64,000 nt of DNA from Luteolibacter yonseiensis (GCF_016595465.1 NZ_JAENIK010000009.1:310001-374000), one strand, 5' to 3'. Counted from the stretch's first letter, positions 6,679 through 46,318 are shown. The notes: generated from the sequence alone by a model not told the origin. Made by a program: numbers and translations.

Positions 6679-7248
6679 TTAGGAAAACAACTTCCGATCC
6701 AGCGATCGATATTGGATCGCTTCCAGGATGTCGTTCGGACGGATGTCGGGAGCGCCGCCGAGATCGGCCAGGGTGCGGGCGACTTTCAGGATGCGGTCGT
6801 GGGCGCGGGCGGAGAAGTTCATCTGCTCCATGGCGTGTTCCAGGTAGCGGTTCGACTCGGCGTCGAGCTTGCAGTGCTGCCGCACCTGGCGGGAACCCAT
6901 CGCGGAGTTGGTGGAGTTGGAGAATTTCCGGAACCGCTCCTGCTGGATCTCCCTCGCCGCCACCACCCGCTGGCGGATGGTTTCGGATTTTTCACCCATG
7001 TTCGAGTCGGACGACAGGTCGCGGAAATCGACAAGCGGCACCTCCACGTGGAGATCGATGCGGTCTAACAACGGTCCGGAAATGCGCTGGCGGTAGTTTT
7101 CGATCTGGCGTGGCGAGCAACGGCACTCCCGTTTGAGGTCGCCATAGTAGCCACAAGGGCAGGGGTTGAGCGCCGAGACGAGGAGGAACCTCGCGGGGAA
7201 GGTGAGGGAACCGGCGGCGCGCGAGATGGTCACATGGCCGTCCTCCAA
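6679..7248 (-). pseudogene. comM: comM (yifB) 3' half, separated by the inserted element
   Basis: This encodes the C-terminal part of a Mg-chelatase-like AAA+ ATPase of the YifB/ComM family, a hexameric helicase that promotes branch migration during natural transformation. The frame carries conserved C-terminal blocks: EDGHVTISRA, LVSALNPCPCGYYGD, the Cys cluster CRCSP, GPLLDRIDLHVEVP with the arginine finger region, and the lid-helix block SARAHDRILKVARTLADL. It begins at the QPLED motif with no start codon of its own. The missing 5' half lies on the same strand at 45353-46318. The two halves fit exactly at QPLE, so excision of the intervening 38 kb would restore the gene. Confidence 0.93.
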
Positions 7249-7254
7249 TGGCTG
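7243..7254. other. attL: left junction of the mobile element
   Basis: CTCCAA-T-GGCTG here matches CTCCAA-G-GGCTG at 45347-45358 with one mismatch. Outside it lies comM coding sequence; inside it lies the recombinase gene. Joining the inner flanks gives CAGCCATT (45339-45346), CTCC and AATGGCTG (7247-7254), a perfect 8-bp dyad around the core. Dyad symmetry is expected for serine-recombinase sites. The exact crossover dinucleotide within CTCC cannot be read from one junction pair. Confidence 0.85.
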
Positions 7255-7273
7255 CTTGATTTAGGTATTTCAA

Positions 7274-9037
7274 ATGGGTAGAATTCGTGTCATGAACACG
7301 CGAAACCAGAAAAGTAAAAAACAGGAATTACCGGTGGTTGAAGGACCAAAGCGTGCGTATTCCTACATTCGCTTTTCTTCGAAGAAACAGGCAAAAGGGT
7401 CCTCCCTGAGTCGTCAGTTGGAGAAAACACGGAAGTATTGCCGCGAACGTGGGCTGCTTCTTGATGAAAGCATGTCCTATCAGGATTTGGGAGTTTCTGC
7501 GTGGAAGGGTATGAATCTCGACGATCGGAATGGGCTCGGACAACTGGTCGCGGCGTGTCAGGATGGCCTCATTCCACCCGGGTCAGCGATTGTTGTAGAG
7601 GCGATGGACCGGATTTCTCGGCAGCGTCCACGGCGCGTGTCGACGTTGCTCGGTCGATTCCTCGACGAATTTCGTGTGGAGATCCATTTGATTGGTATCG
7701 AGAAGGTCCTCTTGCCGGATGTTCCAACGGCTGCAGAGGAAGGGATGGATCTTATGTATATTGCGATGCTTGCCAGCCGGGCAGCTGAAGAACAGGAGAC
7801 CAAGTCGGACCGGCTCAAGGCTGCCTTTGAGAGAAAACGACGCAAGGTAGCAGATGGTACTAAACTGATGGAAACCAAACCTGGGAAAATGCCCTGGTGG
7901 ATCGTTTATAACGGCAAATCACTTGAATCTCCACCGGACCGGGCGGAGGTGGTTCGATCGATCTATTTATGGACCGCAGATGGCGTCACCGCGCCCGAAA
8001 TTGCCCGCCGGCTGCAGGCGTCTGGAATTCCAACATGGAGACCGGTGACGAAGATCTGGACTTCCGCTAGGGTCCGGGATCTTGTGAGGTCACGGGCACC
8101 CGAGGGTATTCTTTCTGAAACACCCAAGACAGCTGTTAGCGGTCTTACTTACGAAGTTCCGGGTTACTACCCTAAATTGGTAGACGCAGACATTGCTGAG
8201 CGTGCGCGTGCGGCGATGACAGCAAATCGGCGGCAGGCCGGAAGACCCCATGAGATTCGCGCTGAAGGAGAAAGGCCGATCAATATTCTCCGCGGACTGC
8301 TACGGTATGAGGGGCATTGGTGTGCCCATGGAACACGTGCCAACGGAACCGATGGTGCGATGAACGGATATTTCATCGTCTATCTGGAGGAGCTAAAAAA
8401 GACACTCGTATCGATTCCGGCAAGGTTGATCGAGCCGACCTTGCTTGCGGGCCTCGTCGAACTGAAACCCGCTGATCTTGTTCCGCCTCCGGATGAGGTA
8501 GATCCTTATGTGGGCAAACTCGCATCCTTGAAGGAGGAATTGAAGAAGGTTGAAAAGGTGTTGGAGAGCCTCGCCGACAAGGTTGAACAGAATCCCGATA
8601 TCGATACACTGTTGGTCAGGCTCCGCGAGCGGGAAGCTGATCGTAAGCAGCTCAGGGAAGAAATCGGAGAGCTGTCTGTTAAAGTCAAAACGCGACCGTC
8701 CGGGACTGCGCGGGAGACGAAGGAACTGAAATCTTTGATCGATGCAGATATGCGTGAAAATGCAGTGCGTGGACGTATTGCCGAGTTGCTACGGTCTATG
8801 ATCGAACGCATCGATTTTTCTTACAATCCGACAGCTGCAACCGGCGCTGTCAGCCTCTCATTGTTGCAAAAACAGGGGTTATTTATTCCCGATCCCCTGC
8901 CGGCGTCAAAACGGCGTAAGGCACTTTCGATGATCATCCATTTTCGCAGAGGCGGAAGGCGGGCGATCGTAAGGCTAGATCCCGAGAAAATGGCAAAGAT
9001 CGGTCGCCCAGATACCCTTTTCTCCGGTCGCTGCTAA
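7274..9037 (+). CDS. Large serine recombinase (element integrase)
   Basis: This 587-residue protein has a catalytic resolvase domain (residues 27-180) with the nucleophile Ser35 in YIRFSSKKQ and the family arginines in MDRISRQRPRR. A recombinase domain follows (about 195-340, EIARRLQASGIPTWR), then a degenerate zinc-ribbon region (LLRYEGHWCAHG) in which the usual Cys pairs are mostly lost, and a coiled coil (about 415-500). Large serine recombinases integrate and excise elements between short non-identical att sites. The gene starts about 25 bp from attL, the usual position for an element integrase. A second ATG at residue 7 is an alternative start. The protein is slightly larger than typical phage integrases. 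Confidence 0.92.
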   Translation: MGRIRVMNTRNQKSKKQELPVVEGPKRAYSYIRFSSKKQAKGSSLSRQLEKTRKYCRERGLLLDESMSYQDLGVSAWKGMNLDDRNGLGQLVAACQDGLIPPGSAIVVEAMDRISRQRPRRVSTLLGRFLDEFRVEIHLIGIEKVLLPDVPTAAEEGMDLMYIAMLASRAAEEQETKSDRLKAAFERKRRKVADGTKLMETKPGKMPWWIVYNGKSLESPPDRAEVVRSIYLWTADGVTAPEIARRLQASGIPTWRPVTKIWTSARVRDLVRSRAPEGILSETPKTAVSGLTYEVPGYYPKLVDADIAERARAAMTANRRQAGRPHEIRAEGERPINILRGLLRYEGHWCAHGTRANGTDGAMNGYFIVYLEELKKTLVSIPARLIEPTLLAGLVELKPADLVPPPDEVDPYVGKLASLKEELKKVEKVLESLADKVEQNPDIDTLLVRLREREADRKQLREEIGELSVKVKTRPSGTARETKELKSLIDADMRENAVRGRIAELLRSMIERIDFSYNPTAATGAVSLSLLQKQGLFIPDPLPASKRRKALSMIIHFRRGGRRAIVRLDPEKMAKIGRPDTLFSGRC

Positions 9038-9040
9038 CGA

Positions 9041-9979
9041 TCACCAGATCGATGGCTCGGGCCGGGGTGGTTTCAGCGATTGGGGTTCCGGGCTTTTGTC
9101 GGGTTCTTTTCCTTTCCCCGCAAGCAACATAGCTTTAAGCAGCAGTTCCTCTATCGCCCGCATTCCTAGAAATCCATCAGCTGCACGGCGGAGCACACCT
9201 CCAATTTCTTTGTTCCAAGCTGGGATCAATTCTTGGGGGATCTGACGGGCGATGTCCTTGGCGACGTGGGCGTAATCTGCGGGAAGCATGGGAGATAGGA
9301 GGACGATTTCATCCCGGAATCGCTGCCTGAGTTCGGCGTCGATTTCAGCAAGGATTTGTTCCTTGGTTGGAGGTTCTGGCAGAAATAATTCCTTTGAGGA
9401 GTTGAATCCGAGAGTCCGGGCGTTGCCGCGCCAAGCGGATTGCCAAGCGCCACAGCCCATGATCATGACGCGTTCCCGGAGTGTCCGCTCCAGTTCCGCT
9501 TTCTGATCTTTGCCGGAACCCTGGGGAAAGCTTTCAGCCGGAAGTGATTCGATGGGCAGCTTCGTGGCAACTGGCAGCACCCCGTCCAGAAGGTCATGGA
9601 TCTCCAGCCGAACATTTCGAGTCCACTCGCTGGGCGACTGGAGTTTATCAATCTCATCGAGCACAAGAACCCCAGCACCCGGCAGCCGGTCGAGCCAATC
9701 GGCGATCAGTGAGATGGTCCATGGGTCGCCACGTGAGCCAGCGATCATCCACGCCGCGACATTGATGACGAGAGATGGAATTCCAAGTTGTTCTCCAAGG
9801 CGACGTGCGAGATGCGATTTCCCGCTGCCGGACGGTCCGATCAGCAGGCTGTGGGTTCTGGGTAGGACGGACATGCCGGAACGGATTCCTGAAGTGGCGA
9901 TCCTCGCCACCGGGAGGAGTTTTTTGAGCGCGTGTTGTTGCTGAGGTGAAAGGATCATCTTTTCTTTGTATTGAGCCAT
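9041..9979 (-). CDS. AAA+ ATPase of the mobile element
   Basis: This 312-residue protein has a clear P-loop (LLIGPSGSGKSH, about residues 45-56), a Walker B (GVLVLDEIDKL) and a sensor-like MIMGCGAWQ, resembling the ClpX/RuvB-type AAA+ fold. A helical C-terminal lid domain ends in a Pro-rich tail (KPPRPEPSIW). Its partner and substrate are unknown. It converges on the integrase gene (3 bp between stops) and is the last gene of a leftward cluster with the RadC-like gene. It could be a remodelling ATPase acting in replication or maintenance of the element; that is inference only. Confidence 0.75.
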   Translation of the reverse strand: MAQYKEKMILSPQQQHALKKLLPVARIATSGIRSGMSVLPRTHSLLIGPSGSGKSHLARRLGEQLGIPSLVINVAAWMIAGSRGDPWTISLIADWLDRLPGAGVLVLDEIDKLQSPSEWTRNVRLEIHDLLDGVLPVATKLPIESLPAESFPQGSGKDQKAELERTLRERVMIMGCGAWQSAWRGNARTLGFNSSKELFLPEPPTKEQILAEIDAELRQRFRDEIVLLSPMLPADYAHVAKDIARQIPQELIPAWNKEIGGVLRRAADGFLGMRAIEELLLKAMLLAGKGKEPDKSPEPQSLKPPRPEPSIW

Positions 9980-12358: not shown

Positions 12359-13240
12359 ATGCACGGCGTGAGTTCCCCCGCTATATCATCGTCCCATATC
12401 CTCCCGGCCGCGCCTTTTGAACGCCTCTATGACCATCTTCATTTCGACACGGATTTGAAGAAGCGTTTGGTGTCCCAAATCGCTCTAACCTTCCTACTCC
12501 GATCGAAATTTTCTCCCGGAGACCTGCCTGTTCACGGCATAATTCTTCTTCATGGCCCTCCCGGTACAGGAAAGACCTCGGTTGCGAAGGCCGTGGCTTC
12601 CAAAGCTGCCAGTATCATCAAAGGGAAAAAGCCGATGCGGCTCCTTGAGATTGACCCGCATGCCTTGACCGGCTCCGCGCTCGGAAAAAGTCAGAAGGAA
12701 GTGATGAAGCTCTTCCGGGAAACAATTGTCGAAGAGGCAGCAAAAGGACCTCTGATTGTGCTTCTCGACGAGGTGGAAACCATGGCGGCCAGTCGCCAGA
12801 AGGTCAGTATGGAGGCTAACCCGCTCGATGTACATAGGGCAACCGACGCTGTTCTGACAGGTCTCGACGCAATTGCGTCCACGCATCCCGAGATCATTTT
12901 CATCTGTACCAGTAACTTTCAACAGGCGCTTGATGAGGCGTTCGTCTCTCGTACGGACTTCATGACTTTCGTGGATGTTCCAGGAGACGCCGCTCGTCAT
13001 CAAATTATCGACGATACACTGAAAACCTTGGGTTCTGTGTGGAACGAGATCAATGCCCTGCGGACTCAGCCGAATCTGAAAAAGCTGGTAAAAGCGAGCA
13101 AGGGCATGGACGGCCGCGCCATTTGTAAGCGAATCCTGCTAGCCCTCTCCTTGGATACCTCGCTCGCGTCGAACCCCGGTACACTGACCATCGGTCACCT
13201 CGAAACCGTATTCTCCGAAAATCCCCCCCAAAAATCATGA
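12359..13240 (+). CDS. cap6: CBASS TRIP13/Pch2-like AAA+ ATPase (Cap6)
   Basis: This 293-residue AAA+ protein has Walker A GPPGTGKT (residues 66-73), Walker B PLIVLLDEVE (131-140), sensor-1 FICTSN (181-186) and the SRTD arginine region. In type III CBASS, TRIP13-like ATPases disassemble the active HORMA-cyclase complex and so keep the system silent. The assignment rests on the fold plus the context: it heads a five-gene operon with a HORMA protein, a CD-NTase and NucC, and overlaps the next gene by 4 bp. It is the only gene of the cluster preceded by a promoter-like sequence. The start is the only nearby ATG in frame. Confidence 0.88.
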   Translation: MHGVSSPAISSSHILPAAPFERLYDHLHFDTDLKKRLVSQIALTFLLRSKFSPGDLPVHGIILLHGPPGTGKTSVAKAVASKAASIIKGKKPMRLLEIDPHALTGSALGKSQKEVMKLFRETIVEEAAKGPLIVLLDEVETMAASRQKVSMEANPLDVHRATDAVLTGLDAIASTHPEIIFICTSNFQQALDEAFVSRTDFMTFVDVPGDAARHQIIDDTLKTLGSVWNEINALRTQPNLKKLVKASKGMDGRAICKRILLALSLDTSLASNPGTLTIGHLETVFSENPPQKS

Positions 13241-13719
13241 GTTCAGTAATTGCCCGCAGAATCCGTTCTGCCCCCCACCGGCCAGCAGGAGAAACATGGC
13301 AGATAATTTCGGACCTGCTATGCCAGGGAGACAAAGCCCTGCTCGAGGAACTTGGTGGAGTCGCCGGAATTGTCGCCTCAACAATCGTCGATAAGGAGCC
13401 AAGGGAAGCGCCGATTATCGTCATCGGCAAGGGACCACGGATCCGGTTCTACTGCCTCTACGGTGATGATGCCATCACTGGTGACGACGCAAACGAAGAT
13501 GCGCTTCCAGTGAAGCCGCTGGAGGGATCTTGGGAAATCCATGTCCCATTCCCAGCCGATGAATTGGATTGGGCGCAAGGCGCCCTGAAGAAGCAGTCGA
13601 CGAAGATCAAGGCCTACGACTCAAAAGCCGGCATTGAAAAATCGGGAAGTGAAGCAGCGGTCCAAGCTACCTCCAGTCCATCAACCTCAATCGATCTCGA
13701 CGCCCTCAACCGCCTATGA
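13237..13719 (+). CDS. Unknown 160-aa component of the type III CBASS operon
   Basis: This is the extra gene between the TRIP13-like ATPase and the HORMA protein, overlapping both by 4 bp. It has a folded part (about residues 15-120) with the phrases APHRPAGETW, IIVIGKGPRIRFYCLYG, DDANEDAL and DELDWAQGALKK, then a Ser/Ala-rich flexible tail ending SIDLDALNRL. Some type III systems encode two HORMA proteins (Cap7 and Cap8), one providing a closure peptide for the other. This protein is not an obvious HORMA by sequence, but its position and peptide-like tail would fit a partner or closure-motif donor. That is inference. The family is probably conserved with HORMA-type CBASS. Confidence 0.7.
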   Translation: MSSVIARRIRSAPHRPAGETWQIISDLLCQGDKALLEELGGVAGIVASTIVDKEPREAPIIVIGKGPRIRFYCLYGDDAITGDDANEDALPVKPLEGSWEIHVPFPADELDWAQGALKKQSTKIKAYDSKAGIEKSGSEAAVQATSSPSTSIDLDALNRL

Positions 13720-14216
13720 GCACGACCGTCAAAGTTAACACCTACTCGCATAGTGTCACGCATGTGACTGACAACATCTTGTCAGGTCTAAAAAGGATCA
13801 TTCTGCTGAGCGGCCTGTCTCTCGATAAACTCACTTCCGATTGGAAGGTGCTCGAGGCCGGCATCGGCAAGTGGCTTGAAACCCGGCACCTTAATACGGT
13901 GACTCTGGAGATTTACACGGGGACTTCATCATTGGTCGGACGTTGGGATTTTGACATCAGCTACACTTACACCACCGGCGACGATGGCGATTTGTGGGCG
14001 GATGTCGATGCCATCAAATTCGCCATCAAGAAGGCAGGAGCCATCCCATCCACCTGCATATACCGCGTTATCGCCAACACGAAGGACGGCCGACCTGACG
14101 TCAATGGTTGGTCATCCACTCAATACCTCTCAACCGACGGTTTCACCAAACGCCCAATTGGAACCACTATCGGCGCAACGCATCTTGGGGCAGGAACCAG
14201 CTACTGGTCAAAATAA
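13716..14216 (+). CDS. cap7: CBASS HORMA-domain protein (Cap7)
   Basis: 166 residues matching the bacterial HORMA family in length and landmarks: NTYSHSVTHVTDNIL at the N-terminus, WLETRHLNTVTLEIYT, VGRWDFDISY, then the swapping safety-belt region with DGRPDVNGWSSTQY and a terminal YWSK. In type III CBASS the HORMA protein closes around a peptide on a phage or partner protein and then activates the CD-NTase. It overlaps its upstream neighbour by 4 bp and the CD-NTase start by 1 bp (TAATG), so the stoichiometry is probably set by coupled translation. Confidence 0.88.
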   Translation: MSTTVKVNTYSHSVTHVTDNILSGLKRIILLSGLSLDKLTSDWKVLEAGIGKWLETRHLNTVTLEIYTGTSSLVGRWDFDISYTYTTGDDGDLWADVDAIKFAIKKAGAIPSTCIYRVIANTKDGRPDVNGWSSTQYLSTDGFTKRPIGTTIGATHLGAGTSYWSK

Positions 14217-15094
14217 TGACAATCGAAGAAGCATTTCAGAAATTTAAGTCCCGTCTTGAACTTACCGACGGCGAGCAGAAGGACGCCAGCAAGCGGCAGA
14301 AGCGAGTTCGCGAGGTGATGTCAGAGAATTTTCACGTCGAGGACGACTTTCTCGCCGGTTCATATGCGAGGCATACGAAAACCAAGCCTCTCAAGGATGT
14401 GGATATTTTCTTGGCCCTCGGGAGCAAAGAACGCCACAGGCTCGACGAACCCGCAAAGGATCTGCTTGAGGCAGTGAGGGTTGCGCTGGTTCCAGAGTAT
14501 GGAGAGGATAAAGTTTCCATTGGTCGCAGATGCGTTCAGGTCAGGTTCGGTGGTGATGAAGACGACGACAAGGTCATGAGCATCGATGTCGTTCCGGCCT
14601 TCACCGAAGGAGATAACTACAAGATTGCCGACCCTCAGAGCGAAAAGGATTGGGCCGTCACCAATCCTAAGACTCATGCGGCGAAAGCCACCGCCTGCAA
14701 CAAGGATTTCGATCTCAAGTGGAAGCCTGTTGTCAAAATGGCCAAAAAGTGGAACGAGCACAAAGGCAAGCCCATCAAACCAAGTTTCCTCATCGAGGTG
14801 ATGGCGATAGAACTCCTGAAGGGTCCATTTTCGGGCGGTTATCCCTATGAGCTGAAGGCGCTGTTTGCAGCACTGGAAGCCAGGATTTCGGAAATCTGGA
14901 ATGATCCTGCCGGATTGGGGCCACCTGTGTCGGATAGAATGGATGCGGCCGCTTGTCAGAATGCTCGAAAGGTGCTTGCTGAAACTGGGCAGTCCGTAGA
15001 TCGGGCTATTTATCTGGCGAAAACAGGGAACGTGGGCGGAGCACTACGGATCTGGCGTGACGAAGTTTTTGGAAGCCGATTCTCAATTTCCTGA
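14216..15094 (+). CDS. cdnC: CBASS CD-NTase, CdnC-like oligonucleotide cyclase
   Basis: A 292-residue polymerase-beta-fold nucleotidyltransferase. Gly48-Ser49 (LAGSYARHTKT) is followed by the first metal pair Asp61 and Asp63 (KDVDIFL) and the third carboxylate Asp124 (MSIDVVPAF). With HORMA, TRIP13 and NucC next door it best fits the CdnC/CdnD clades, which make cyclic oligoadenylates such as cAAA; the product cannot be read from sequence. I chose the ATG at 14216 because it overlaps the HORMA stop; the open frame extends to 14108 within the HORMA gene. The enzyme is expected to be activated only when bound to the closed HORMA protein. Confidence 0.9.
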   Translation: MTIEEAFQKFKSRLELTDGEQKDASKRQKRVREVMSENFHVEDDFLAGSYARHTKTKPLKDVDIFLALGSKERHRLDEPAKDLLEAVRVALVPEYGEDKVSIGRRCVQVRFGGDEDDDKVMSIDVVPAFTEGDNYKIADPQSEKDWAVTNPKTHAAKATACNKDFDLKWKPVVKMAKKWNEHKGKPIKPSFLIEVMAIELLKGPFSGGYPYELKALFAALEARISEIWNDPAGLGPPVSDRMDAAACQNARKVLAETGQSVDRAIYLAKTGNVGGALRIWRDEVFGSRFSIS

Positions 15095-15097
15095 AGT

Positions 15098-15847
15098 ATG
15101 GCCAAGAAAAAGACTCAAACTCCGCCTTCGCTCAGCGAGTTGTTCGAAGGCTATCAGAAGGGCCTGATCGCGAACCTCGGAATATCCCGTAAGCTGATCA
15201 CCCATCCGGTAGCGAAAGGCGACGCCACGGAACTCCGGTGGATAAAAATGCTGAGAACCTATCTACCAACGCGGTATCAGGTTGAACGTGCCTTCGTGAT
15301 CGACTCGGACGGAACCCTGAGTCAGCAGCAGGATCTGGTGATCTTCGACAGGCATTTTTCGCTTTTTATCTTCGAGCATGAAGGCGTTGCCTACATTCCT
15401 GCGGAAAGCGTCTATGCCGTGTTTGAGGTGAAGCCAGAAATCACTCCGAAATACATCGGTTACGCCGGTGACAAGGCAGAGAGCGTAAGAAGGCTCAAGA
15501 GGACCTCCGGGCGAATCGTCCAAGCTGGGGGTGATGTCCATACCCCTAAGCCGCCACCTCAGATTCTTGCCGGCATACTCGCCTTGGATTGCAAATGGAA
15601 GGAACCGATGGGGGCGAACTTTAAAGGATATCTCCAAGGGCTGAGTGCAAACAGAGCCTTAAACTTGGGCTGTGTGGCCAGGCACGGGGCTTTCGAAATC
15701 ACTGATGCCACACCCACCTCCTTCACCTGGGATGTCAGTCGGCCCGACACTGCCGTCATGTCTTTCGTACTCACTCTCACCAGATTGCTCCAGAAGATGG
15801 GAACTGTGCCGGCGATTCAGATCGAAGAATATGCGAAACATCTCTAA
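15098..15847 (+). CDS. nucC: NucC endonuclease effector of CBASS 1
   Basis: This 249-residue protein has the NucC (DUF6602) layout: KGDATELRW, YLPTRYQVERAFVIDSDG, then Asp79 in QQDLVIFDRH and Glu110-x-Lys112 in ESVYAVFEVK, the restriction-like D...ExK nuclease site. NucC is a homotrimer that binds a cyclic triadenylate, assembles into hexamers and degrades DNA non-specifically, killing the infected cell. It starts 3 bp after the CD-NTase stop and closes the operon. A second NucC lies at 18889-19662. Confidence 0.92.
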   Translation: MAKKKTQTPPSLSELFEGYQKGLIANLGISRKLITHPVAKGDATELRWIKMLRTYLPTRYQVERAFVIDSDGTLSQQQDLVIFDRHFSLFIFEHEGVAYIPAESVYAVFEVKPEITPKYIGYAGDKAESVRRLKRTSGRIVQAGGDVHTPKPPPQILAGILALDCKWKEPMGANFKGYLQGLSANRALNLGCVARHGAFEITDATPTSFTWDVSRPDTAVMSFVLTLTRLLQKMGTVPAIQIEEYAKHL

Positions 15848-16591: not shown

Positions 16592-17311
16592 ATGAAAAGA
16601 GAGAACGCGAGAACCCCGGTGGCGATTCTTGTCCGGGTATCCACCGCCAAGCAGGAAACCGACCGCCAGGTCCATGAACTCCGGGAGGTCGCCACGGCGA
16701 ACAGATGGAAGGTGGTGGAGGTGATCGAAGAACAGGTATCAGGCAATGCCGCCGAGGCGGACCGAGCAGGTATCGAGCGGGCCATGGAACTGGCGCGGTC
16801 GGGATCAATCAGGAAGGTGCTGGTTCACGAGGTTTCCCGGGTGGCCCGCCGGAATTCCACCGCGCACCGGTTTGTGGAGGACCTGGAGGGTTGTGGTGTT
16901 TCCCTGTATTGGCACGCCCAGCGGATTGAAACCCTGCTCCCGTCTGGAAAGCGAAACCCCGCCGCGTCGATCATGTTTTCGTTGTTGGCGGAGATGGCGC
17001 GTAACGAACGTGAAACGCTGGTTGAGCGGATCAAGTCCGGTTTGGAGGAAGCCCGCCGGAAGGGGCACACTCTCGGTCGCCCCGCCGGGTCGGTTCAAAC
17101 CCGGGATGAGATGTTGGCCAAGCACCGGGATGTGGTGCGGCATCTTCGGGCAGGTCATTCAATCCGGCACACTGCCAAGATCACCGGCAAGGGTGTGTCC
17201 ACAGTACAGCGGGTGAAAGCCGCCATGCAACCGGTCTTCGGAAAAGTCGATTATATCGCTGCCGATCAGAGGGGAACGTTTGTCGAGCTTCCAACTCTGA
17301 CTGGAAGGTGA
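16592..17311 (+). CDS. Small serine recombinase (resolvase/invertase family)
   Basis: This 239-residue protein has nucleophile Ser17 in ILVRVSTAKQ, the conserved EVSRVARRN block, the E-helix (AEMARNERETLVERIKSG, partial) and a C-terminal helix-turn-helix (about 185-215, HSIRHTAKITGKGVSTVQR) after a GRPAGS hinge. This is the Tn3-type resolvase or DNA invertase architecture. A possible role is resolving multimers of the element's circular form or of a former transposon. It lies between the two CBASS operons and converges on the second. The two GCGTTGG-type palindromes upstream are candidates for its site, but its true res site cannot be defined here. Confidence 0.88.
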   Translation: MKRENARTPVAILVRVSTAKQETDRQVHELREVATANRWKVVEVIEEQVSGNAAEADRAGIERAMELARSGSIRKVLVHEVSRVARRNSTAHRFVEDLEGCGVSLYWHAQRIETLLPSGKRNPAASIMFSLLAEMARNERETLVERIKSGLEEARRKGHTLGRPAGSVQTRDEMLAKHRDVVRHLRAGHSIRHTAKITGKGVSTVQRVKAAMQPVFGKVDYIAADQRGTFVELPTLTGR

Positions 17312-17351: not shown

Positions 17352-17783
17352 TTATCTCCTAGGCATTGGATGTGGGGCTGATTTCCCCAGCCACTTTCCT
17401 TCGAGAAGGTAAAGTTCGTAAAACAAGATCCACTCATGAATCCAAGGAACAATTTTCTCGTGTAAATTGTCAGTGTGTTTCCACGGGGTTTCCACCGGGT
17501 GGTAGAGGCACAGAGATCCATTTCGGTAGAGGTGGATCTCCGTGCTCGAAACGATGTCGGGTTTCAGGATGAAAACCTGGGGTTCCTTTCCGGGTTCATA
17601 CTCGATCCTAACGGTGTAGGTGGCGCAGTCCGGTGTCGGTCGGACTTCTCCGATGCAAGTCAAACGTCGCTTCGAGTATGCACAGCGAAATTCAGGGAAA
17701 TGTGCTGCCATCAGCGCTTTCTGCAGCGCGAATTTTCGATAGCCTTCGACTCCCTTCCCCCAGTTTTTAAAAACGGTCGCCAT
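17352..17783 (-). CDS. E2-like protein of a short type II CBASS
   Basis: This 143-residue protein has a beta-rich UBC-like core (CATYTVRIEYEPG, then QVFILKPD) and the motif GSLCLYHP with candidate catalytic Cys92, followed by VPWIHEWILFYELYLLEGKWLG, quoted here in part as EWILFYEL. This pattern fits the stand-alone E2 of short type II CBASS, which modifies or primes the CD-NTase without a separate E1 or JAB enzyme. It is the last gene of a leftward operon, overlapping the CD-NTase by 17 bp. No E1-like Cap2 or JAB-like Cap3 gene is nearby. Confidence 0.82.
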   Translation of the reverse strand: MATVFKNWGKGVEGYRKFALQKALMAAHFPEFRCAYSKRRLTCIGEVRPTPDCATYTVRIEYEPGKEPQVFILKPDIVSSTEIHLYRNGSLCLYHPVETPWKHTDNLHEKIVPWIHEWILFYELYLLEGKWLGKSAPHPMPRR

Positions 17784-18882
17784 AGAAACTGTGGGGTAGG
17801 TTACGGACTCCAGCAGATCCGATACCTACGATGCTGGAGGTTTTTGCGGTCCCCGCGGTGATGGTTGCTGCGACGGCTTTAAGGCGTGCTGCCTTTTCTT
17901 TGTCTTCCTTGGCTTTGTCGTAGTCGCGGAAGTAACCGTCACTTTGAAAGACCCACTCCCACGCATCGCGGGCGCTTTTGTTATCTTGGTGATCCGGTGT
18001 GTCCAGAACTCCGAGATTTTCGAGCGCCTCCTCGATTTTTGAAAGGAATTCGGTGACGTTGTCATCCGCGTCGGTGCGGGTGATGGGCGGCTTGTCCGGG
18101 TGAGCAAGGTTCAGGATCACTTTGTTGTCTTCAAGGCGGTCCTTGAGCTCCTCAAGCAATCGTCGGAAGGCCAGATCAAGACGGGAGTGGAATGCCGGCT
18201 GGCATTCGACAACGAGCATCGTGAGTTTCATGCCGTTTGGCATGTCCCAGTTGTAACGGCTGCGGCAAAAGCGTTTCAGGAGTTGGATCAACCGACGCAT
18301 CTGCGTGCCATGGCCTTCGACGTCCGTGTTGCGGGATTTGACCTCATTGTTGAACCAGTGATTGAGTTGGGTTGGATCGGATTCCGTCCAGCCAAATTCA
18401 CCGGCGAGTTCCCGCACCATGTCGCCGTTGTCCTTTTCGTATTTCCGGTAAACGGGGAAATCGATGTGATGGCGCTCCTCGTCGCCCTCCTTGTAATAAA
18501 CGCGGATGGCATTGGCGGCCATGTTGGGCTGTTTTGCGAAACGCGCATCCTTGAGCGCTTCCAGCACGTGCTCCTTGACCTGGGTGGAGGTGAGTTCGTT
18601 GCCGTCGTCATCGACCAGTTCGTCCCGCCATAATACGAGGCCGTCATCGATGTCGTATTCCTCATTGACGAATTTCGTCTGAATGATGGTCCGAACCGCA
18701 GATGATCCCTGGGGTTTGAACGAGCTTTGGGAAATGGAGAGTCCGTCAATCCGCTTGGGTAGCCGCAAAATCAGGCGGTCCCGATTGGAATCACGGTGGG
18801 CGAAGAGCTTTTCTTTGAATCCCTTGGGGAGACGGACTTTTTCCTCACGGAAGGCTTCGATTTGTTCTGAATAGTCAAACAT
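17767..18882 (-). CDS. CBASS 2 CD-NTase (cGAS/DncV-like cyclase)
   Basis: A 371-residue nucleotidyltransferase with the motif FKPQGSSAVRT (Gly59-Ser60), the metal pair Asp77 and Asp79 in EEYDIDDG, and a third carboxylate, Asp141, in HHIDFPVYR. A helical C-terminal half follows, as in CD-NTases. It sits 6 bp after NucC 2 and overlaps the E2 gene, so all three are probably co-transcribed. Since NucC responds to cyclic triadenylate, this enzyme is predicted to make cAAA. Its C-terminus ends SFYGDRF, not in glycine, which is worth noting because E2-linked CBASS enzymes are often joined through a terminal Gly. Confidence 0.88.
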   Translation of the reverse strand: MFDYSEQIEAFREEKVRLPKGFKEKLFAHRDSNRDRLILRLPKRIDGLSISQSSFKPQGSSAVRTIIQTKFVNEEYDIDDGLVLWRDELVDDDGNELTSTQVKEHVLEALKDARFAKQPNMAANAIRVYYKEGDEERHHIDFPVYRKYEKDNGDMVRELAGEFGWTESDPTQLNHWFNNEVKSRNTDVEGHGTQMRRLIQLLKRFCRSRYNWDMPNGMKLTMLVVECQPAFHSRLDLAFRRLLEELKDRLEDNKVILNLAHPDKPPITRTDADDNVTEFLSKIEEALENLGVLDTPDHQDNKSARDAWEWVFQSDGYFRDYDKAKEDKEKAARLKAVAATITAGTAKTSSIVGIGSAGVRNLPHSFYGDRF

Positions 18883-18888
18883 GGTGTA

Positions 18889-19662
18889 TTAGGCGGTGAT
18901 GGTTTTGGCGAGTTGGTTTGCGTAGGCGGACCAGTCAACGGCTGGGACCGTTGCACAGGCCTGGAGACGGCTGAGAAGGCGGAAGGCGAAGTAAGCCAGC
19001 GAGTTTTCGGGAGGGCCGTAGGTGAGTCCTCCCCCTTCCTTGAAGGTGTCAAAACAGGCGCCGTTGGCGGCGAATCCGCAATCGAGAGCCATCGGTCCGC
19101 TGAGTGCGGAGTGATTTTCAAGGAACGAAGCTCCAAGGCCGTCGGCCCATTCCACGTCGATGGCCAAGATTCCAGCAATGATGTGCTGAGGCTCTTTGGC
19201 GGGATAAACGCCACCTGCGTGAACAATGGGGATCGAAGTGCGGTGGAGTTTCCTCACCGATGCTGCTTTATCCCCGGCGTATTCGAGGTATCCCTTGTTG
19301 ATGGTTGGTTTGCACTCGAACACGGCGTAAACGCTTTCCGCAGGGACGTAGCGATGTTTGTCACTGTCCATCAATGTAGGGGTGTATTGACGGTCGAAGA
19401 CGACGACATCAATGGAGTCGCTGGTGTCTCCGCGGGAGTCGATGACCATCGCCTTGTCGACCGTGTAGCGGTCAGGAAGGTAATGGCGTAGGAAGTCGAT
19501 GAAGTGCTGTTCGTTGACCTCTCCTTTGTCGCCCTGGTGGCGGATTCGGTTTGAGGAGCGGAGGCTTGCCTCAAGGCAGACCTGTTCGCTGGCGAAGGAT
19601 TCTTGGAGAAAGAGGACTCCTGCGTCCTCATCCGTTGGCTTGTTTTCGATGGTTTGGATCAT
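18889..19662 (-). CDS. nucC: NucC endonuclease effector of CBASS 2
   Basis: A 257-residue NucC homologue: KGEVNEQHF, HYLPDRYTVDKAMVIDS, Asp85 in SIDVVVFDRQ, and Glu116-x-Lys118 in VYAVFECK. It shares many landmark phrases with the first NucC (AESVYAVFE, YAGDKA, SVR-L-RTS, ILA-D--W) but is clearly a different protein. It is the first gene of the leftward CBASS 2 operon and lies back to back with the sigma-factor gene, so the roughly 90 bp at 19663-19755 must contain two promoters. Expected role: DNA degradation and abortive infection after cyclic triadenylate binding. Confidence 0.9.
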   Translation of the reverse strand: MIQTIENKPTDEDAGVLFLQESFASEQVCLEASLRSSNRIRHQGDKGEVNEQHFIDFLRHYLPDRYTVDKAMVIDSRGDTSDSIDVVVFDRQYTPTLMDSDKHRYVPAESVYAVFECKPTINKGYLEYAGDKAASVRKLHRTSIPIVHAGGVYPAKEPQHIIAGILAIDVEWADGLGASFLENHSALSGPMALDCGFAANGACFDTFKEGGGLTYGPPENSLAYFAFRLLSRLQACATVPAVDWSAYANQLAKTITA

Positions 19663-32810: not shown

Positions 32811-32863
32811 TCATTCATTACTCTATACTGGCCAATTCTGTTGGCTTGGTTTATAAGGCTCGC

Positions 32864-34984
32864 ATGAAACGAAAAGGCCCTGATAAAGGAAGCAAGGTGC
32901 GGGGAAATCCCAATGGTAAAACATTAAGCCCAACATCGAAGACGGTTACGTCCGAAGACATGCTTGAACACATGGGAATAGTGCTGCGCCTGATGAAGGA
33001 CGCAGCATCCACTCAGAGGCATCACGTTTCCAGACTGCGGAAAGAACTGGGGCTCCCTCCAAATGCCGCCCTGCCGGATGCCGTTGGCGACAAAGATGGG
33101 CATTCCAGGGATTATTTCCCGACGGTTCCAGAGATTGATGGCGATACTCTGAAAGATGTGGAGCGGAAAGAGGCGGCGTGTGGGCTGCTGCTGGAAGAAG
33201 GTTCGGTCATCGCAGGTCTCAGAATTTACCGCGCCAAAGCAGGTTCTGGAGAGGACGACGCCTGGTTGGCAAAATCCATTCCGGTTGAGGGAGGCCGGGA
33301 ATGGGTCAACCACAACAAAAAGCTGATTAAAGAGCGAGCCACCTATAGCGAATTGAATCGTCTGATTGTGACCGCTGGCGAGGCAATCGGAGAGCGTAAA
33401 GGCGAGGACGTCGGTAGGCGGAAGGAGAAGATCAGGTATGCCACATCGCCTCTCAAAACAATCACGGCACGGTTGATGCCCCACGAGGCCGAAATCCTCT
33501 TTGGCAGCTTGTCCGGGAACGGACTCGACCGGGCGATGGATTCGCTCAAAAAGGATTTTGAGCATGAAATTGGATGCGAAGTCGCGTCTATGGCGGTTCA
33601 CCGGATGAGGAACAACGACCTTCACGTTCATGTCCAGTACACGATGGTGCTGGAGGTTGAGATGCCCAAGAAGGCGTATGGTCCTCTGAAGAATGAGTGG
33701 GAAAAGAAAGCGGTCGATTGCGCAAGGCAGTCCTTGTTTGCTGAGGGCAAACGCGACTTCCCGGCGGCAGTGGGAAAACGAAAAAAGCTGCTGATCGAGC
33801 AGGGCGTGATTCCGCCTCCTCCGAAAAGGACTCGATTTGAAAAGCAGAAAGGGAACCGGAATCTCAAGACGAATTCCCTTTTGGGTTACTCCTTCAAATT
33901 CAAGCTGAATATGCTTCGAGCGGCCCAAGCTTTTCCGGAGGAAACAGAGCTGGCTGAAAAAATCGCGCAACGGGGTGACAAAAAGGGCGATTTCAGGGAT
34001 AAGTTCCTCTTCCGGACCGATGAGGAGATTCAGGCTGAAAGACTCGATTATTGGCTGGAACGACGGTGGCGGGAATCGGTGGCGGCTGAGGTCCCGGAAG
34101 AAATTCGGGCGCGGCTTCCGGCCGCCGCACTGGAGGAGGCAAGAAAATATGCGATCCACGGCACGACGCAGGTAGAAGCTTTCCACCTCGAACTTCACCG
34201 GGATGCGACGGAGAAGCAGTTAGTGGATTCTGAGACGCAGTTGACCCGAATATTGGATGAGGCTGCTGATCTGGAAATCCGGATGGCGAATCTGGCGGCG
34301 GAATTACAGAGACAAAATCTAGCGTTGGACCAACGCGTTATCGAGGTGGAGGGTCGCGAGAATTCCGTTTTGCAAAGCGAGAACGACGCTGAGTTGCGGG
34401 GAGTCCGCGCTGCATTTGGTAAGCTGTTTCCGGAGTCCGCTCCGGTGGCGAATACCCCTGAGGGTATCATCGAGGAAATAAAGATCGGGATCGAGGACGC
34501 GGCCCAGGCCGCTGTGGAGAATCAGATGCTGGAGGCACTTGAGCCTCCGAGTTTGGAAGCGGTAGCTGAAAAAATGGGCTTCGGCCCGGAACCGAACGCT
34601 GAGGGACTATTTCGCCTGCCTGAGGGAGGCCTTCACCCCGAACGGGTGCTCATCACCGACCGGACATTTGTTCGATCGTTTCCCACGCTGGGAATGGATT
34701 CCCCGCAGAAGGGTGAAGGAGTAGTGGAGCTGCTAGCGACAGAAGAGACGAGAGAATCGATCAAACGCTCAAGATCTCAACTACTCGCCCAGTTACTGAA
34801 ATGGTTCCCAAACAAAGCGATTGCGCTCGCCAACGAGGCTCTGGGGGACCGCGCCGGCAAGTTTCTCAGAGAGCTATTGCATCTGGACGCGCCGAAGACT
34901 CCGGCGAAGAAGGCCGGCTTGGCAAAAAAGGCCAAGGATGATTCTCCAGACGGGAATGATCCTTCGTCTCATGAGGGCCAGTAA
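32864..34984 (+). CDS. Candidate relaxase / mobilisation protein
   Basis: 706 residues from the ATG at 32864, with AAGG upstream. The middle has a histidine motif VHRMRNNDLHVHVQYTM (His254-x-His256) preceded by FEHEIGCEVASMA, resembling the HUH/three-His metal site of MOB_V/Pre-type relaxases. A long coiled coil follows (about 440-520), then a C-terminal Lys-rich tail. RSF1010 MobA/RepB is similar in length, but I see no clear primase domain. Expected role: nicking at oriT and piloting single-stranded DNA during mobilisation. The palindrome GCGTTGGACCAACGC (34322) lies in its coiled-coil codons. It is the least certain backbone assignment. Confidence 0.55.
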   Translation: MKRKGPDKGSKVRGNPNGKTLSPTSKTVTSEDMLEHMGIVLRLMKDAASTQRHHVSRLRKELGLPPNAALPDAVGDKDGHSRDYFPTVPEIDGDTLKDVERKEAACGLLLEEGSVIAGLRIYRAKAGSGEDDAWLAKSIPVEGGREWVNHNKKLIKERATYSELNRLIVTAGEAIGERKGEDVGRRKEKIRYATSPLKTITARLMPHEAEILFGSLSGNGLDRAMDSLKKDFEHEIGCEVASMAVHRMRNNDLHVHVQYTMVLEVEMPKKAYGPLKNEWEKKAVDCARQSLFAEGKRDFPAAVGKRKKLLIEQGVIPPPPKRTRFEKQKGNRNLKTNSLLGYSFKFKLNMLRAAQAFPEETELAEKIAQRGDKKGDFRDKFLFRTDEEIQAERLDYWLERRWRESVAAEVPEEIRARLPAAALEEARKYAIHGTTQVEAFHLELHRDATEKQLVDSETQLTRILDEAADLEIRMANLAAELQRQNLALDQRVIEVEGRENSVLQSENDAELRGVRAAFGKLFPESAPVANTPEGIIEEIKIGIEDAAQAAVENQMLEALEPPSLEAVAEKMGFGPEPNAEGLFRLPEGGLHPERVLITDRTFVRSFPTLGMDSPQKGEGVVELLATEETRESIKRSRSQLLAQLLKWFPNKAIALANEALGDRAGKFLRELLHLDAPKTPAKKAGLAKKAKDDSPDGNDPSSHEGQ
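34322..34336. repeat. Palindrome GCGTTGGACCAACGC, copy 3
   Basis: An exact copy of the 15-mer at 16316, here inside the coiled-coil region of the relaxase-like gene (codons for ALDQR). Confidence 0.75.
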
Positions 34985-36440: not shown

Positions 36441-36795
36441 AGCACCGGCGTCCGCACGGGGATGATGGCTCAGCTCGCCGTGGCGCGGATGCGTTCAGGG
36501 GTGATCTTCTCCCCGCAGGGGGGTGGCCTTGGCGGCTCTGTGCCCTTGTTGTTGTCTTGCTCTTGGTCCCGGAGGGCGGTAGCCTGACCGGGCAGAGGCG
36601 CTAGCCTCGGTCCCGTTTTTGGGGCGGGCGATGGACCTGCCGCCTCAAGCGGCTGGGCCTGTCGGCCCGCCTTGGCAATATTGGAATTGTTGACAATATT
36701 GGAGCGAAGAGGAAAAGGGGCCCCATTTGTTACACAAGTATATAACTGTGTGTTGGTTGTGAATCATGAAAAATTCGTTAAATTTGTGCCGATAC

Positions 36796-36872
36796 GCCGA
36801 ACCTTTCGGGGCGATAGGCCGAATCTTTCGGGCCGATAGACCGAACTATTCGGGGCGATAAGCCGAACTATC
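36796..36872. repeat. 22-bp iterons, three and a half copies
   Basis: Direct repeats of the form GCCGAAC-TTTCGG-GCGATAG at 36796, 36818 and 36840, with a half copy at 36862 that overlaps the repC stop codon. RSF1010 oriV likewise has three and a half iterons (20 bp) bound by RepC, which supports a replication role. Confidence 0.85.
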
Positions 36873-37764
36873 TAACGGACGGTGGAAGGAGTGATTTGGG
36901 GGATTTGGGACGAAAAACGGTTGCCTTGGCGGAGTCGCCCCTGCCAACCAGTGAGACCTTCCATCCGGCAGGAGCAAAGGATTTCAGGGAGGCGGTAAGC
37001 GCTCTCCATTGATCGGGGGTGGCTGTCTGATCGTCGGAAAGGGCGAAGACACTCTGGGCAAGAACTGTAACCCGGATGGTCCGCTCCTGGCCCTCGCGGA
37101 GAAGTAGTACGAATCTTGAGTAGAGGATTTGCGAGATTTGACTATTCAGCGATCGCCTCTCCGCTATCCACTGGACGGCCATACCGGCGTTGGTGTTGCC
37201 GGCGATCACGGCGGCGGACAGGCGGTTGAGGAGGATCGTGATGTTGCTGTCCCGCTCGCCGGGACCGAGGAGTTTTCGGTGGATGGCAATGAGCCTTGAG
37301 AACTGACTCCCCTCCGGATTGAGATAATGAATGTTGGTGTTTTCAAGACGCCTGAAGCATTCGTTGAGGCGATCATAGCTTCGCCCGTTGGTGCCCCATC
37401 CGAGAAGGGTCAAGATCTCGTGACGTGTCGCCACGGCGGCGAGGATGTCATCATCCATTCGGACGCCCTCTTCTTTGAGGATGCTGCGGATCTTGGATCC
37501 TCCTCGTACGGTTTTGCGGCGATCAGCGGGAGCCATGATGGCAAGGAGCGCCATGAGGACGGATTCGTCATCGGCGTCGAGCTCCCAGGGACAGATGATC
37601 TCGAGCCGGTAGGGGTTTGTCGAACCAGGTGGGCTGTTGTGGATGATTTCACGACGTGCCCGCCTGTTGGCGGGCATTTTAGGTAGCGGCCTGAACAACG
37701 AGACGGCCGCGAGGTGACCGTGGTGTATCGCGAACCGATATAGTTCTTTGGTATCCGCGGTCAT
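36868..37764 (-). CDS. repC: IncQ-like replication initiator RepC
   Basis: A 298-residue winged-helix-type initiator. Features resembling IncQ RepC are NPYRLEIICPWELDADDESVLMAL (in part), a central ALLAIMAP, LTLLGWGTNGRSYDRL with the helix-turn-helix-like NECFRRLENTNI, and a second domain with RLIAIHRKLLG and LSQSVFAL-type segments. It overlaps the repA-like gene start by 4 bp and the iterons follow its stop, as in IncQ plasmids. Its expected role is to bind the iterons and open the AT-rich region. I rate the family fit as good, supported by synteny more than by catalytic motifs. Confidence 0.75.
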   Translation of the reverse strand: MTADTKELYRFAIHHGHLAAVSLFRPLPKMPANRRARREIIHNSPPGSTNPYRLEIICPWELDADDESVLMALLAIMAPADRRKTVRGGSKIRSILKEEGVRMDDDILAAVATRHEILTLLGWGTNGRSYDRLNECFRRLENTNIHYLNPEGSQFSRLIAIHRKLLGPGERDSNITILLNRLSAAVIAGNTNAGMAVQWIAERRSLNSQISQILYSRFVLLLREGQERTIRVTVLAQSVFALSDDQTATPDQWRALTASLKSFAPAGWKVSLVGRGDSAKATVFRPKSPKSLLPPSVR

Positions 37765-38699
37765 GACCGGGCCGTGTCGGTGGAGGGATCATCCAAGACA
37801 CCTCCGATCCGGGGCCGGTTGGCAGCGGGTCTTGTTGCCGATTGGGCAGGTGTAGTGATTGGGACCGGTACACCCGTGCTGTTCTTCCGAAACCACTGCG
37901 GGTCGTGCATCATTCCATGATTGATTTTGGTCTGCTCGAGGATGACGTAATGGCTGCGCTGCTCCTCAGAGATTCCATGTTTGGCCGCTTTTTGTTGCGA
38001 CGGCTTTCTGACCGACCACGCAGTGCGGGCGGCGAAGGAAATAGCCACCGATCCGCGTTCCGTCCCGGCGGCGTCAAGGTCATCCCGGGCGGCTTGCATG
38101 CCCGCTTTGTTTGTATGGTGGATGAGTAGCCCGCCAGCTCCCCAATCACTCAGCTTGTCTTCGATGCCCACGAAAAATTCCGTCATCTGAATCGCGTCAT
38201 TTTCATTGGTACCCGGAGGCAGAAATCTGGATAGCGTGTCAAAAACCACGAGGACGGGAGGAATTGCCTTACCATTGGCGTCTTCGGGGAGGATAATCCC
38301 GTAATCCATCGTGGGCTCCAGAAACCGGGCATTACAGACCACCAGGTTGTGACAGTAGGCTTCGAAGGCGGCTCCAGCGGTGAGCTGCAAATGTTGGCAG
38401 ATAGAATACAACCGAGCTTCAAGGTCGATGATGTCATCCTCCCGTGAGATGAATACCACCGGTCGCCCTCCTGGCACCGCTGGCCCCCAGAGGCCCCCGA
38501 GCACCGGCAGGCCTGCGGCGATCTGCACACAAGCAACGAGTGTCATGAACGATTTGGATGCTCCTCCAACCGCGGTGATCACCCCGAGTCTGCCCGGATA
38601 TATGCCGGGCAAAATATAAGGACGTTCCGGTTGGGCAACGAGAGCGGCGAGACGGTTCACGGCTCTTTCGGTTAGTTTTCCTGGAGGGATTGATGGCAT
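37761..38699 (-). CDS. repA: IncQ-like replicative helicase RepA
   Basis: 312 residues from the ATG at 38699 (MPSIPPGKLTERAV). P-loop GGASKS at residues 45-50 (VITAVGGASKSFMT), Walker B VLVVFDTLSRFLPPGTNEND (about 145-164), a sensor HHTNKAG and an arginine-rich end match the RSF1010 RepA/AAA_25 hexameric helicase family. Upstream in-frame residues come from the leader and are not protein-like. The gene precedes repC with a 4-bp overlap. A conserved hairpin leader (38753-38769) and the terminator of the upstream gene lie ahead of it. Confidence 0.85.
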   Translation of the reverse strand: MPSIPPGKLTERAVNRLAALVAQPERPYILPGIYPGRLGVITAVGGASKSFMTLVACVQIAAGLPVLGGLWGPAVPGGRPVVFISREDDIIDLEARLYSICQHLQLTAGAAFEAYCHNLVVCNARFLEPTMDYGIILPEDANGKAIPPVLVVFDTLSRFLPPGTNENDAIQMTEFFVGIEDKLSDWGAGGLLIHHTNKAGMQAARDDLDAAGTERGSVAISFAARTAWSVRKPSQQKAAKHGISEEQRSHYVILEQTKINHGMMHDPQWFRKNSTGVPVPITTPAQSATRPAANRPRIGGVLDDPSTDTARS

Positions 38700-38752
38700 G
38701 GTGTGTTGTGTAGTTTCGGGAACACGATCAGAGGCGAAAGAAGGGCGCGGGC

Positions 38753-38769
38753 CGGGAAACCGGGCCGGG
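38753..38769 (-). promoter_or_regulatory. Recurrent leader hairpin, copy ahead of repA
   Basis: GGCCGG-GAAA-CCGGGCC followed by GGGGCAGCGCG (plus-strand reading). The same motif occurs ahead of three other leftward genes (39687, 41625, 43512), each time after a terminator and 30-70 nt before a start codon. Confidence 0.6.
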
Positions 38770-38803
38770 GCAGCGCGTGCCAACCGCAGGAAAAAACAAA
38801 AAA

Positions 38804-44676: not shown

Positions 44677-44799
44677 GGGGGTAGTTTGCTTCCTCGCCGA
44701 AATTTCCACAAGATCCGAGTGCCGGAGTTCGGTATGCGGAGTAAACGCTGCTCTCTCTGAATCCTTCCGCACCGTACCGGATCGCCCCAGTCTGACCGG

Positions 44800-45000
44800 A
44801 TGTCCTCCAAGACCATCCCCAAACCGTGGCGCGTCGCCGACTTGACCTTCATCGAAATCGAGATCACCCACCCCACCGACAGGCAACTGCGGGTCGAGTT
44901 CGACTGCGGGCTGCGCCTCGTCATCGCCGACGAACGACAGATCCCTCTCGCCGCCCGCCTTATCGAAACGTTGCGTGCCGGGAAGGGAGGTCTCAAGTGA
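44800..45000 (+). pseudogene. IS66-family TnpA-like remnant
   Basis: A 66-residue frame resembling the accessory TnpA of IS66 elements in its C-terminal half: HPTDRQLRVEFDCGLRLVI followed by ADERQIPLAARLIETL. The stop overlaps the TnpB start (GTGA), the usual IS66 arrangement. No complete IS with TnpC or inverted repeats is present, so it is a leftover fragment. Confidence 0.6.
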
Positions 45001-45263
45001 TAGGCTTTCCCTCCGGCGTGCGGGTGCATCTAGCGATCGAACCCCACGACATGCGCAAGTCCTTCAACGGTCTCGCCGCCGTCGCCGGACATCTCGCGGT
45101 CCGGGGACTGGAAAGCGGAGCCCTCTTCGCCTTCACCAACAAACGGCGAAACCGTCTCAAAGTCCTCTACTACGACCGCACGGGCGTCTGCGTGCTCTCG
45201 AAAAGGCTTGAGACCGGCACATCCACCCGGCCCGCTCCTTCGTCCGCCGGGGCCTCCACCTGA
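44997..45263 (+). pseudogene. IS66-family TnpB, 3'-truncated
   Basis: 88 residues with the TnpB core: FPSGVRVHLAIEPHDMRKSF, then ALFAFTNKRRNRLKVLYYD and RTGVCVLSKRLETGT. The C-terminus then diverges (STRPAPSSAGAST) from the family pattern and the protein is short of the usual 110-120 residues, suggesting a frameshift or truncation. It starts with GTG. It lies about 85 bp from attR. Confidence 0.85.
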
Positions 45264-45328
45264 CAGTGGTCTCCTATGGCATGCTGTGGAACGCGCATTT
45301 GACCAAATCCACGCGCAAAACAAAGTCA

Positions 45329-46318
45329 TTAAATTCCACAGCCATTCTCCAAGGGCTGGCGCAGCACTTCGAGCGTCTGCCTGCGGAACTCGGGCAGCTC
45401 GTCGAGGAAAAGCACGCCGTGGTGCGCCAGCGAGACCTCGCCGGGGCCGGGGTTCTGTCCGCCACCCAGCAGGCCCGCGTCCGAGATGGTGTGGTGCGGC
45501 GCGCGGAAGGGGCGGGTTGTTATAAATGATTTCTTGGAATCGAGCATGCCCGTCACCGAGTGGATCTTGGTGGTCTCGATGGCGTCGTCCTCCGTCATGT
45601 CCGGCATGATGGTGGGGATGCGCTTGGCGAGCATGGATTTCCCGGTGCCCGGCGGCCCGACCATGATGATGTTGTGTCCTCCGGCGGCGGCGACCTCCAG
45701 CGCCCGCTTGACGTGGTGCTGGCCCTTCACCTCGTCGAAATCCACCTCATAGCTGCGGTGGGAGTTGAAGAACGCCCGGCGGTCCAGTTGGTAGGGCGGG
45801 ATGATGACGTCGCCATTGAGGAAATCCCACGCCTGCTTGAGGTTGCGGATCGGGAAGACCTGGATGCCGTCGATGACGGCGGCCTCCGGGGCGTTCGCCT
45901 CCGGCACCAGCAGCCTCGCCCGCCCGCGCTTCTTCGCCTCCAGCGCGATGGCGAGCACCCCCTTCACCGGACGCACCGCGCCGTCGAGGCCCAGCTCGCC
46001 GACGACACAGCAGTCCTCGGCGTCGAAGGGCTTGGTGCCGCTCGCCGCGACCATGGCGAGGGCGATGGGCAGATCGAACGACGGCCCCTCCTTTTTCAAG
46101 TCCGCCGGAGCGAGGTTCACCGTTTTCACCCCGTCATCCAGAGCCAGCGCGGATGCGCCGATGGCGGAGATCACCCGCTGCGACGACTCACGCACCGCGG
46201 CATCCGGCAGTCCGACGATGATGACTACCGGCTTCTCCGCCCCACGGGCGTTGACCTCGACTTCGACTTCCAGGGCATCGACACCGCGCAACGCGGCTGA
46301 AAATAAGCGGGTAATCAT
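45329..46318 (-). pseudogene. comM: comM (yifB) 5' half
   Basis: The frame starts at [16 protein letters not shown] (ATG at 46318) and has the ComM N-terminal domain ([18 protein letters not shown], in part; [20 protein letters not shown], in part), Walker [16 protein letters not shown] and Walker [12 protein letters not shown]. Native sequence ends at QPLE (about 45353); eight further codons (ending NGCGI) come from the element before a stop at 45329. The protein would lack sensor, arginine-finger and lid regions and is expected to be inactive. The 3' half is at 6679-7248. Confidence 0.95.
45347..45358. other. attR: right junction of the mobile element
   Basis: CTCCAA-G-GGCTG matches attL with one mismatch. 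Immediately to the right comM coding sequence resumes on the minus strand (EVLRQPLE). To the left, CAGCCATT completes the dyad that pairs with AATGGCTG at attL. Confidence 0.85.

Follow-up and report, generated by a model that had tools for sequence, protein, structure and literature searches.

A 38-kb serine-integrase element in comM of Luteolibacter yonseiensis combines an IncQ-like replicon with multiple defence genes

The interrupted comM and its junctions

The window considered here is the whole of a 64-kb stretch of DNA of Luteolibacter yonseiensis (Akkermansiaceae), and in it the Mg-chelatase-like gene comM, read from the minus strand, is split between 7243 and 45358 by an insert with the gene for a large serine recombinase at one end and, further in, genes for several defence systems and for a plasmid-like backbone (Table 1). 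Deleting 38,104 bp (7243 to 45346) and fusing the flanks gives a single stop-free comM frame of 511 codons, and in a tblastn search with the rejoined protein residues 319-511 align at 7260-6682. The break falls at a Leu-Glu codon pair, residues 326-327, immediately past the Walker B region of ComM. Both halves are free of stops, which suggests that the insertion is recent.

At the two junctions stand the words CTCCAATGGCTG (7243-7254) and CTCCAAGGGCTG (45347-45358), identical at 11 of 12 positions. Fusing the inner ends of the element yields a candidate attP, the attachment site of its circular form, as the dyad ATTAAATTCCACAGCCATT-CTCC-AATGGCTGCTTGATTTAGG, in which arm positions 3-10 are all paired (8/8) together with five outer positions, 15-19. 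Its pair count within 12 nt is equalled at only 0.4% of random window positions, the attP word CAGCCATTCTCC has a single occurrence in the window, and the predicted circle junction contains CAGCCATTCTCCAATGGCTGCTTGATT. An earlier note on this DNA, made without database searches, had proposed just such a 38-kb element splitting comM at 7243-45358, with gene halves rejoining in frame, a near-identical 12-bp flanking word, and an attP that could be rebuilt as a dyad adjoining a large serine recombinase gene; its coordinates and description are correct, and all of these features were reproduced.

The reading frame at 7274-9037 has a Resolvase N-terminal domain (Pfam, E=3.4e-18) and a Recombinase domain (E=1.5e-8), and matches the integrase family phrog_95 (E=2.4e-55). 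The layout is that of the large serine integrases, with a short core common to attL and attR, the two junctions, and a dyad attP at the element end adjoining the integrase gene. Because the enzyme is a serine integrase, the exchange is placed at the two central bases of the core, which on the plus strand are TC (7244-7245 and 45348-45349) and on the comM strand GA; the remainder of the 12-bp word is likeness between attP and attB, the target site in comM. Within the genus, homologs of the integrase are present in G088 (53% identical; genomes, contigs and loci are given by working labels, with G000 for the host) and in G024, whose gene has the conserved CTTGATT arm upstream of it but is not beside comM. 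Beyond G088 no relative at E<1e-60 was found among 387 genomes of the order, and a scan of named genomes with the protein gave no match. With so few homologs in genus and order, this is a rare integrase subfamily. A second large serine recombinase lies elsewhere in the host genome, away from comM (G000:C13:232944-233249; L001, L010).

comM as a target in the genus

Of the relatives, from which fetched stretches were examined, those with names are Akkermansiaceae metagenome genomes, several of them labelled Luteolibacter. comM is uninterrupted in 49 of 72 same-genus genomes (24 of 36, then 25 of 36 more), three of these being cut solely by a contig end, and the intact genes encode proteins of 75-92% identity to the rejoined ComM in nearly all cases and 69% in one. 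Thus the two pieces are not a pair of native genes, an outcome that the earlier note had allowed for, and the core codons present in the intact genes constitute an empty attB. The host genome has no second full comM, fragments only; degraded ones distant from comM are at G000:C13:301723-302125 and C9:205130-205360 (L008, L009). Both comEC and dprA have open frames in this genome, which leaves comM as the visible lesion among the DNA-uptake genes checked.

The search for elements with the same kind of recombinase, also suggested at the outset, was rewarded by an independent case at the same comM codons in a different species. In G088, comM residues 1-326 (C14:149506-150483) are followed 93 bp on by the 53%-identical recombinase gene (150576-152279), and comM resumes on the same strand of that contig at 227765, from about residue 323, which makes the element ~77 kb long. 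The G088 junctions have the core AGAG/GGAA around GA and an attP-like dyad, GGCAATC-GGAG-GATTACC, and in both elements CTTGATT stands in the recombinase-side arm nine bases after the core. With serine integrases the central dinucleotide decides the orientation of insertion. It reads, on the recombinase strand, TC in the window element and GA in G088, and the opposite orientations of the two elements relative to comM, albeit two cases only, fit because the dinucleotide is reversed.

Other positions in comM are used as well. In G062 and G006 the gene is broken near codon 220, within the Walker A region, next to a recombinase ~30% identical to that of the window, and in G012 a recombinase zinc-ribbon fragment adjoins comM cut at codon 356. 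In G077, a complete genome of another species, comM is broken at codons 350-357 by an insert of 80 kb, and by tblastn the CBASS (cyclic oligonucleotide-based antiphage signalling system) operon of this insert (L101 12196-15678) is 92-98% protein-identical to CBASS operon 1 of the window. This likeness indicates that elements inserting at different sites in comM have recently exchanged cargo.

Many relatives also have 3' fragments of comM downstream of the intact gene, always on the same strand where found on one contig (for instance L045 2022-8435, L047 3771-18122 and L043 6525-11598, with many others). Many of the contigs concerned are metagenome assemblies; the single-contig genomes G004, G077 and G083 show the pattern too. 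The fragments start mainly near codons 321, 350 and 454-483, and their DNA is mostly 82-96% identical to comM of the same genome and mostly 75-82% to that of other species. Several starting near codon 321 have in common an upstream element-end motif, AGTGNTGAAAnCCAnCAGCCGTC, and those starting near codon 350 share another. At nine loci (L205, L206, L215, L217, L218, L220, L223, L228, L230) a BRO-N antirepressor-like gene starts within ~30 bp of a comM stop codon, and in four of the nine a further comM 3' fragment comes directly after it; related BRO genes are also found directly behind other genes, one resembling the end of cas6e, and in L212 a 340-bp direct repeat lies around the BRO gene. 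In L049 (6071-7613) a comM 3' fragment runs into what looks like the start of a DNA cytosine methylase gene, with a small serine recombinase next to it; the two genes have similar att-like words, and the fusion suggests that these recombined. Tandem 3' remnants look as if units that restore the gene had inserted repeatedly, by analogy with the ssrA islands of Dehalococcoides; no active unit of this kind was found. That the window element itself restores comM with a 3' end of its own was rejected, as there is no comM 3' copy inside it. At the other end of the gene, a 5' remnant (residues 15-36) lies upstream of comM at 50656-50721 of the window, and similar remnants ending near codon 36 and followed by the same word, GTGGGAAAGACTTT, are present in G002 and G022; their agreement points to a further site in the 5' end of comM.

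Replicon and defence cargo

The replicon is IncQ-like in its layout: a RepC-type initiator gene adjoins that for a RepA helicase, at 28-30% identity and so remote, and there are tandem iterons of 22 bp, within the 20-22 bp expected of such plasmids. Homologs of both proteins, at 55-66% identity, are encoded by the G062 comM element, and among 73 genomes of the genus RepC at such similarity was found only there and in the window element (RepA was not searched for separately). As in IncQ-type plasmids there is a RepC-like initiator, a RepA-type helicase and 22-bp tandem iterons; the differences are that the window element is integrated, that the identity is only 28-29%, that a RepB primase was not identified, and that its relaxase candidate is outside recognised families. 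The last, the 712-aa product of 32846-34984, has one homolog in the genus, with the HUH-like motif conserved; it gave no family hit, has no relative in plasmid records, and its structure model is of low confidence (pLDDT 39).

In the defence cargo, the first CBASS operon has the combination characteristic of such systems, a CD-NTase with a NucC effector, HORMA and TRIP13. For the 508-aa Pycsar-like protein a cyclase-like motif (MDLDGFT...FAGDNAIF) was read by eye, without profile support. No phage structural genes (capsid, portal, terminase, tail) were detected in Pfam scans of nearly all sizeable reading frames or in PHROGs searches with ten proteins, and there are no Rfam families in the element.

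Table 1. Features of the split comM and of the element within it (window coordinates)
Feature	Position	Strand	Remarks
comM 3' part	6679-7246	-	residues 327-511, severed from start; one intact frame
Left attachment junction	7243-7254	.	core CTCC 7243-7246, exchange dinucleotide TC 7244-7245
Recombinase-side attP arm AATGGCTGCTTGATT	7247-7261	+	contains CTTGATT
Large serine recombinase (integrase), 587 aa	7274-9037	+	Pfam, PHROG, G088 homolog
AAA ATPase	9041-9979	-	46% identical to gene in G088 comM element
CBASS operon 1: TRIP13, unknown, HORMA, CD-NTase, NucC nuclease	12359-15847	+	Pfam, PADLOC
Small serine recombinase, DNA-invertase-like	16592-17311	+	homologs beside comM 3' junctions in G021 and G088
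CBASS operon 2: DncV-like CD-NTase and second NucC	17767-19662	-	
CapP-like M78 peptidase, CBASS regulator type	20701-21594	+	
Pycsar-like genes: 508-aa protein, an unknown, PycTM-like membrane protein	22537-25330	+	PycTM E=1.1e-9
Schlafen AlbA_2 domain protein	25335-26261	-	
MmeI-type (type IIL) restriction-methylation enzyme	26271-29084	-	
ParA/MinD-like ATPase, probably partition or mobilisation	29878-30876	-	sequence KPIVFIAMNTKGGAYKSAILA... read by eye; no profile hit
Possible relaxase, 712 aa	32846-34984	+	HUH-like motif LHVHVQYTMVL; no family hit
Four tandem 22-bp iterons (...GCCGAACtaTTCGGGgCGATAg...), putative replication origin (oriV)	36783-36867	.	just outside repC end; spacing 22, 22
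IncQ-type RepC-like initiator	36868-37764	-	29% identity over 92% to IncQ RepC; weak Pfam RepC
RepA-type helicase (AAA_25)	37761-38783	-	64% identical to G062 comM element
Truncated IS66 TnpB remnant, right end of element	45000-45263	+	Pfam TnpB_IS66 4.5e-20
Right attP arm CAGCCATT and right core CTCC (45347-45350)	45339-45350	.	
comM 5' part	45347-46318	-	residues 1-327, ATG at 46318; Mg_chelatase and ChlI domains, Pfam 6.9e-63 and 1.7e-37

Origin of the insertion and its meaning

The insert is more specific than the ‘element’ of the earlier note, having several defence systems besides an IncQ-like replicon; together with a ParA-like protein and a possible relaxase, that replicon makes an integrated plasmid the most probable reading. 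We consider it very probable that this 38.1-kb integrative element, equipped with a large serine integrase, entered comM by one integrase-mediated exchange at the GA dinucleotide. What can be taken directly from the sequences compared is the junctions, the geometry of a single exchange, the empty site, and the independent related element at the same codons.

Several considerations weigh against this reading. The recombinase is without a close characterised relative, plasmid records having only 26-30% identical recombinases and no solved structure matching it by sequence. Support for the relaxase and partition assignments is weak, neither a circle nor an excised copy has been observed, and the strains available include no close pair with and without the element. 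The earlier note had called for an empty site between otherwise collinear flanks; empty sites with intact core codons there are, but the flanks are only partly collinear. The genes directly flanking comM in the relatives fetched differ from those in the window, and where, in a few relatives, the window's genes 55803 and 58620 are near comM and on the same side of it, comM has the opposite orientation, so that it appears inverted relative to its neighbours. No tested case of natural transformation is known for this host group.

Was the element acquired as a unit? It may instead be a composite island, in which a serine-integrase element later took up plasmid, IS66 and defence modules, only the outer shell being mobile and the element now being stuck in place, and to this we would give about one chance in three. 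The internal small serine recombinase with homologs beside comM junctions elsewhere, the IS66 remnant at the right end, and the two NucC-containing CBASS operons, the first of them shared with a different comM element, all speak for such accretion; on the other side the integrase is intact, the ends are attP-like, and the stop-free comM halves suggest recency. It is very improbable that a transposon of Tn6022 or Tsy type, both of which target comM close to the position seen here (PMC10293859), placed the island with the serine recombinase as a passenger: no Tns, TniQ or tyrosine recombinase is among the element proteins scanned, apart from the short core neither terminal inverted repeats nor a target duplication is seen, and the serine recombinase, which occupies the extreme end of the element, has a homolog in an independent element inserted at these codons, where the orientation follows the core. 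Recombination between comM remnants, or some other homologous exchange, is scarcely credible in place of the integrase, common as such remnants are in the genus and rearranged as the region is, for the likeness between the junction words extends to only 11-12 bp, the element brings no 3' end of comM with it, and there is a dyad of att type.

With integrase-mediated entry as the preferred reading, the element would enter the cell as a circle, replicating or being maintained via its plasmid module, and the integrase encoded at 7274-9037 would insert the circle into comM. Serine integrases by themselves recombine attP with attB, and excision requires a directionality factor. Such a factor would allow the element to leave as a circle, with comM restored, and the excised circle might then replicate and be mobilised. 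In the meantime the insertion would be expected to lower natural transformation in this strain as AbaR insertion does in Acinetobacter, where comM loss lowers it and AbaR removal raises it 300-1000-fold (PMC7508600). With comM broken there would be less integration of transforming DNA and a lower chance of the element being removed by homologous recombination, a rationale published for other comM insertions (PMC4774983).

The class of event is already known, comM being a favourite target of serine integrases. The comM/YifB gene is targeted by 12.4% of predicted site-specific large serine recombinases and is the leading target gene named, competence genes being enriched among targets (Durrant et al. 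2022, PMC10083194); the elements there likewise insert within the same gene family, the window element differing in its Akkermansiaceae host, IncQ-like replicon and several defence systems. The Wolbachia prophage WO variant sr1WO (PMC9203015) also has a large serine recombinase that splits a Mg chelatase gene, with attP predicted by joining the inner ends, but is a phage with structural genes, of which the scans made here found none. The AbaR islands, offered earlier as the comM precedent, are indeed transposon-type, though in view of these two studies they are not the sole one: AbaR/Tn6022 and Tsy (PMC10293859, PMC7508600) split comM close to Walker B as here, but are moved by Tn7-like transposition or by a tyrosine recombinase with TnsF instead of a serine integrase. 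The Dehalococcoides ssrA islands and staphylococcal cassette chromosome (SCC) elements (PMC3146451) are serine-recombinase elements sharing one site and leaving tandem target 3' ends, like the comM remnants of this genus, but they restore their target whereas the window element breaks comM.

New are the occurrence in this host group, the precise att sites of an integrase from a rare subfamily, and an IncQ-like replicon with stacked defence cargo. Less expected are the use of several positions in comM within the genus and the tandem 3' remnants of the gene. A broader proposal, for and against which we feel evenly drawn, is that comM is a crowded multi-site landing gene in the genus, cut near codons 220, 326 and 356 by at least three integrase types with exchangeable plasmid and defence modules, and that smaller units insert repeatedly with a replacement comM 3' end, leaving tandem same-strand remnants like gene cassettes. 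One such unit would carry the BRO-N gene found close to comM stop codons at the nine loci, and the window element would then represent the gene-breaking side of a way of life in which comM is mostly restored.

The conflict between mobile elements and natural transformation is hereby extended to Verrucomicrobiota, with exact and testable attB and attP sequences, and disruption of comM is linked to a probable plasmid that integrates with numerous anti-phage systems aboard, one CBASS operon having been exchanged between two different comM-targeting elements. The new integrase, with its predicted attP/attB pair, may serve as a genetic tool in a poorly tractable group. As for the relatives, their comM 3' arrays would show hosts and elements settling the conflict by keeping comM whole.

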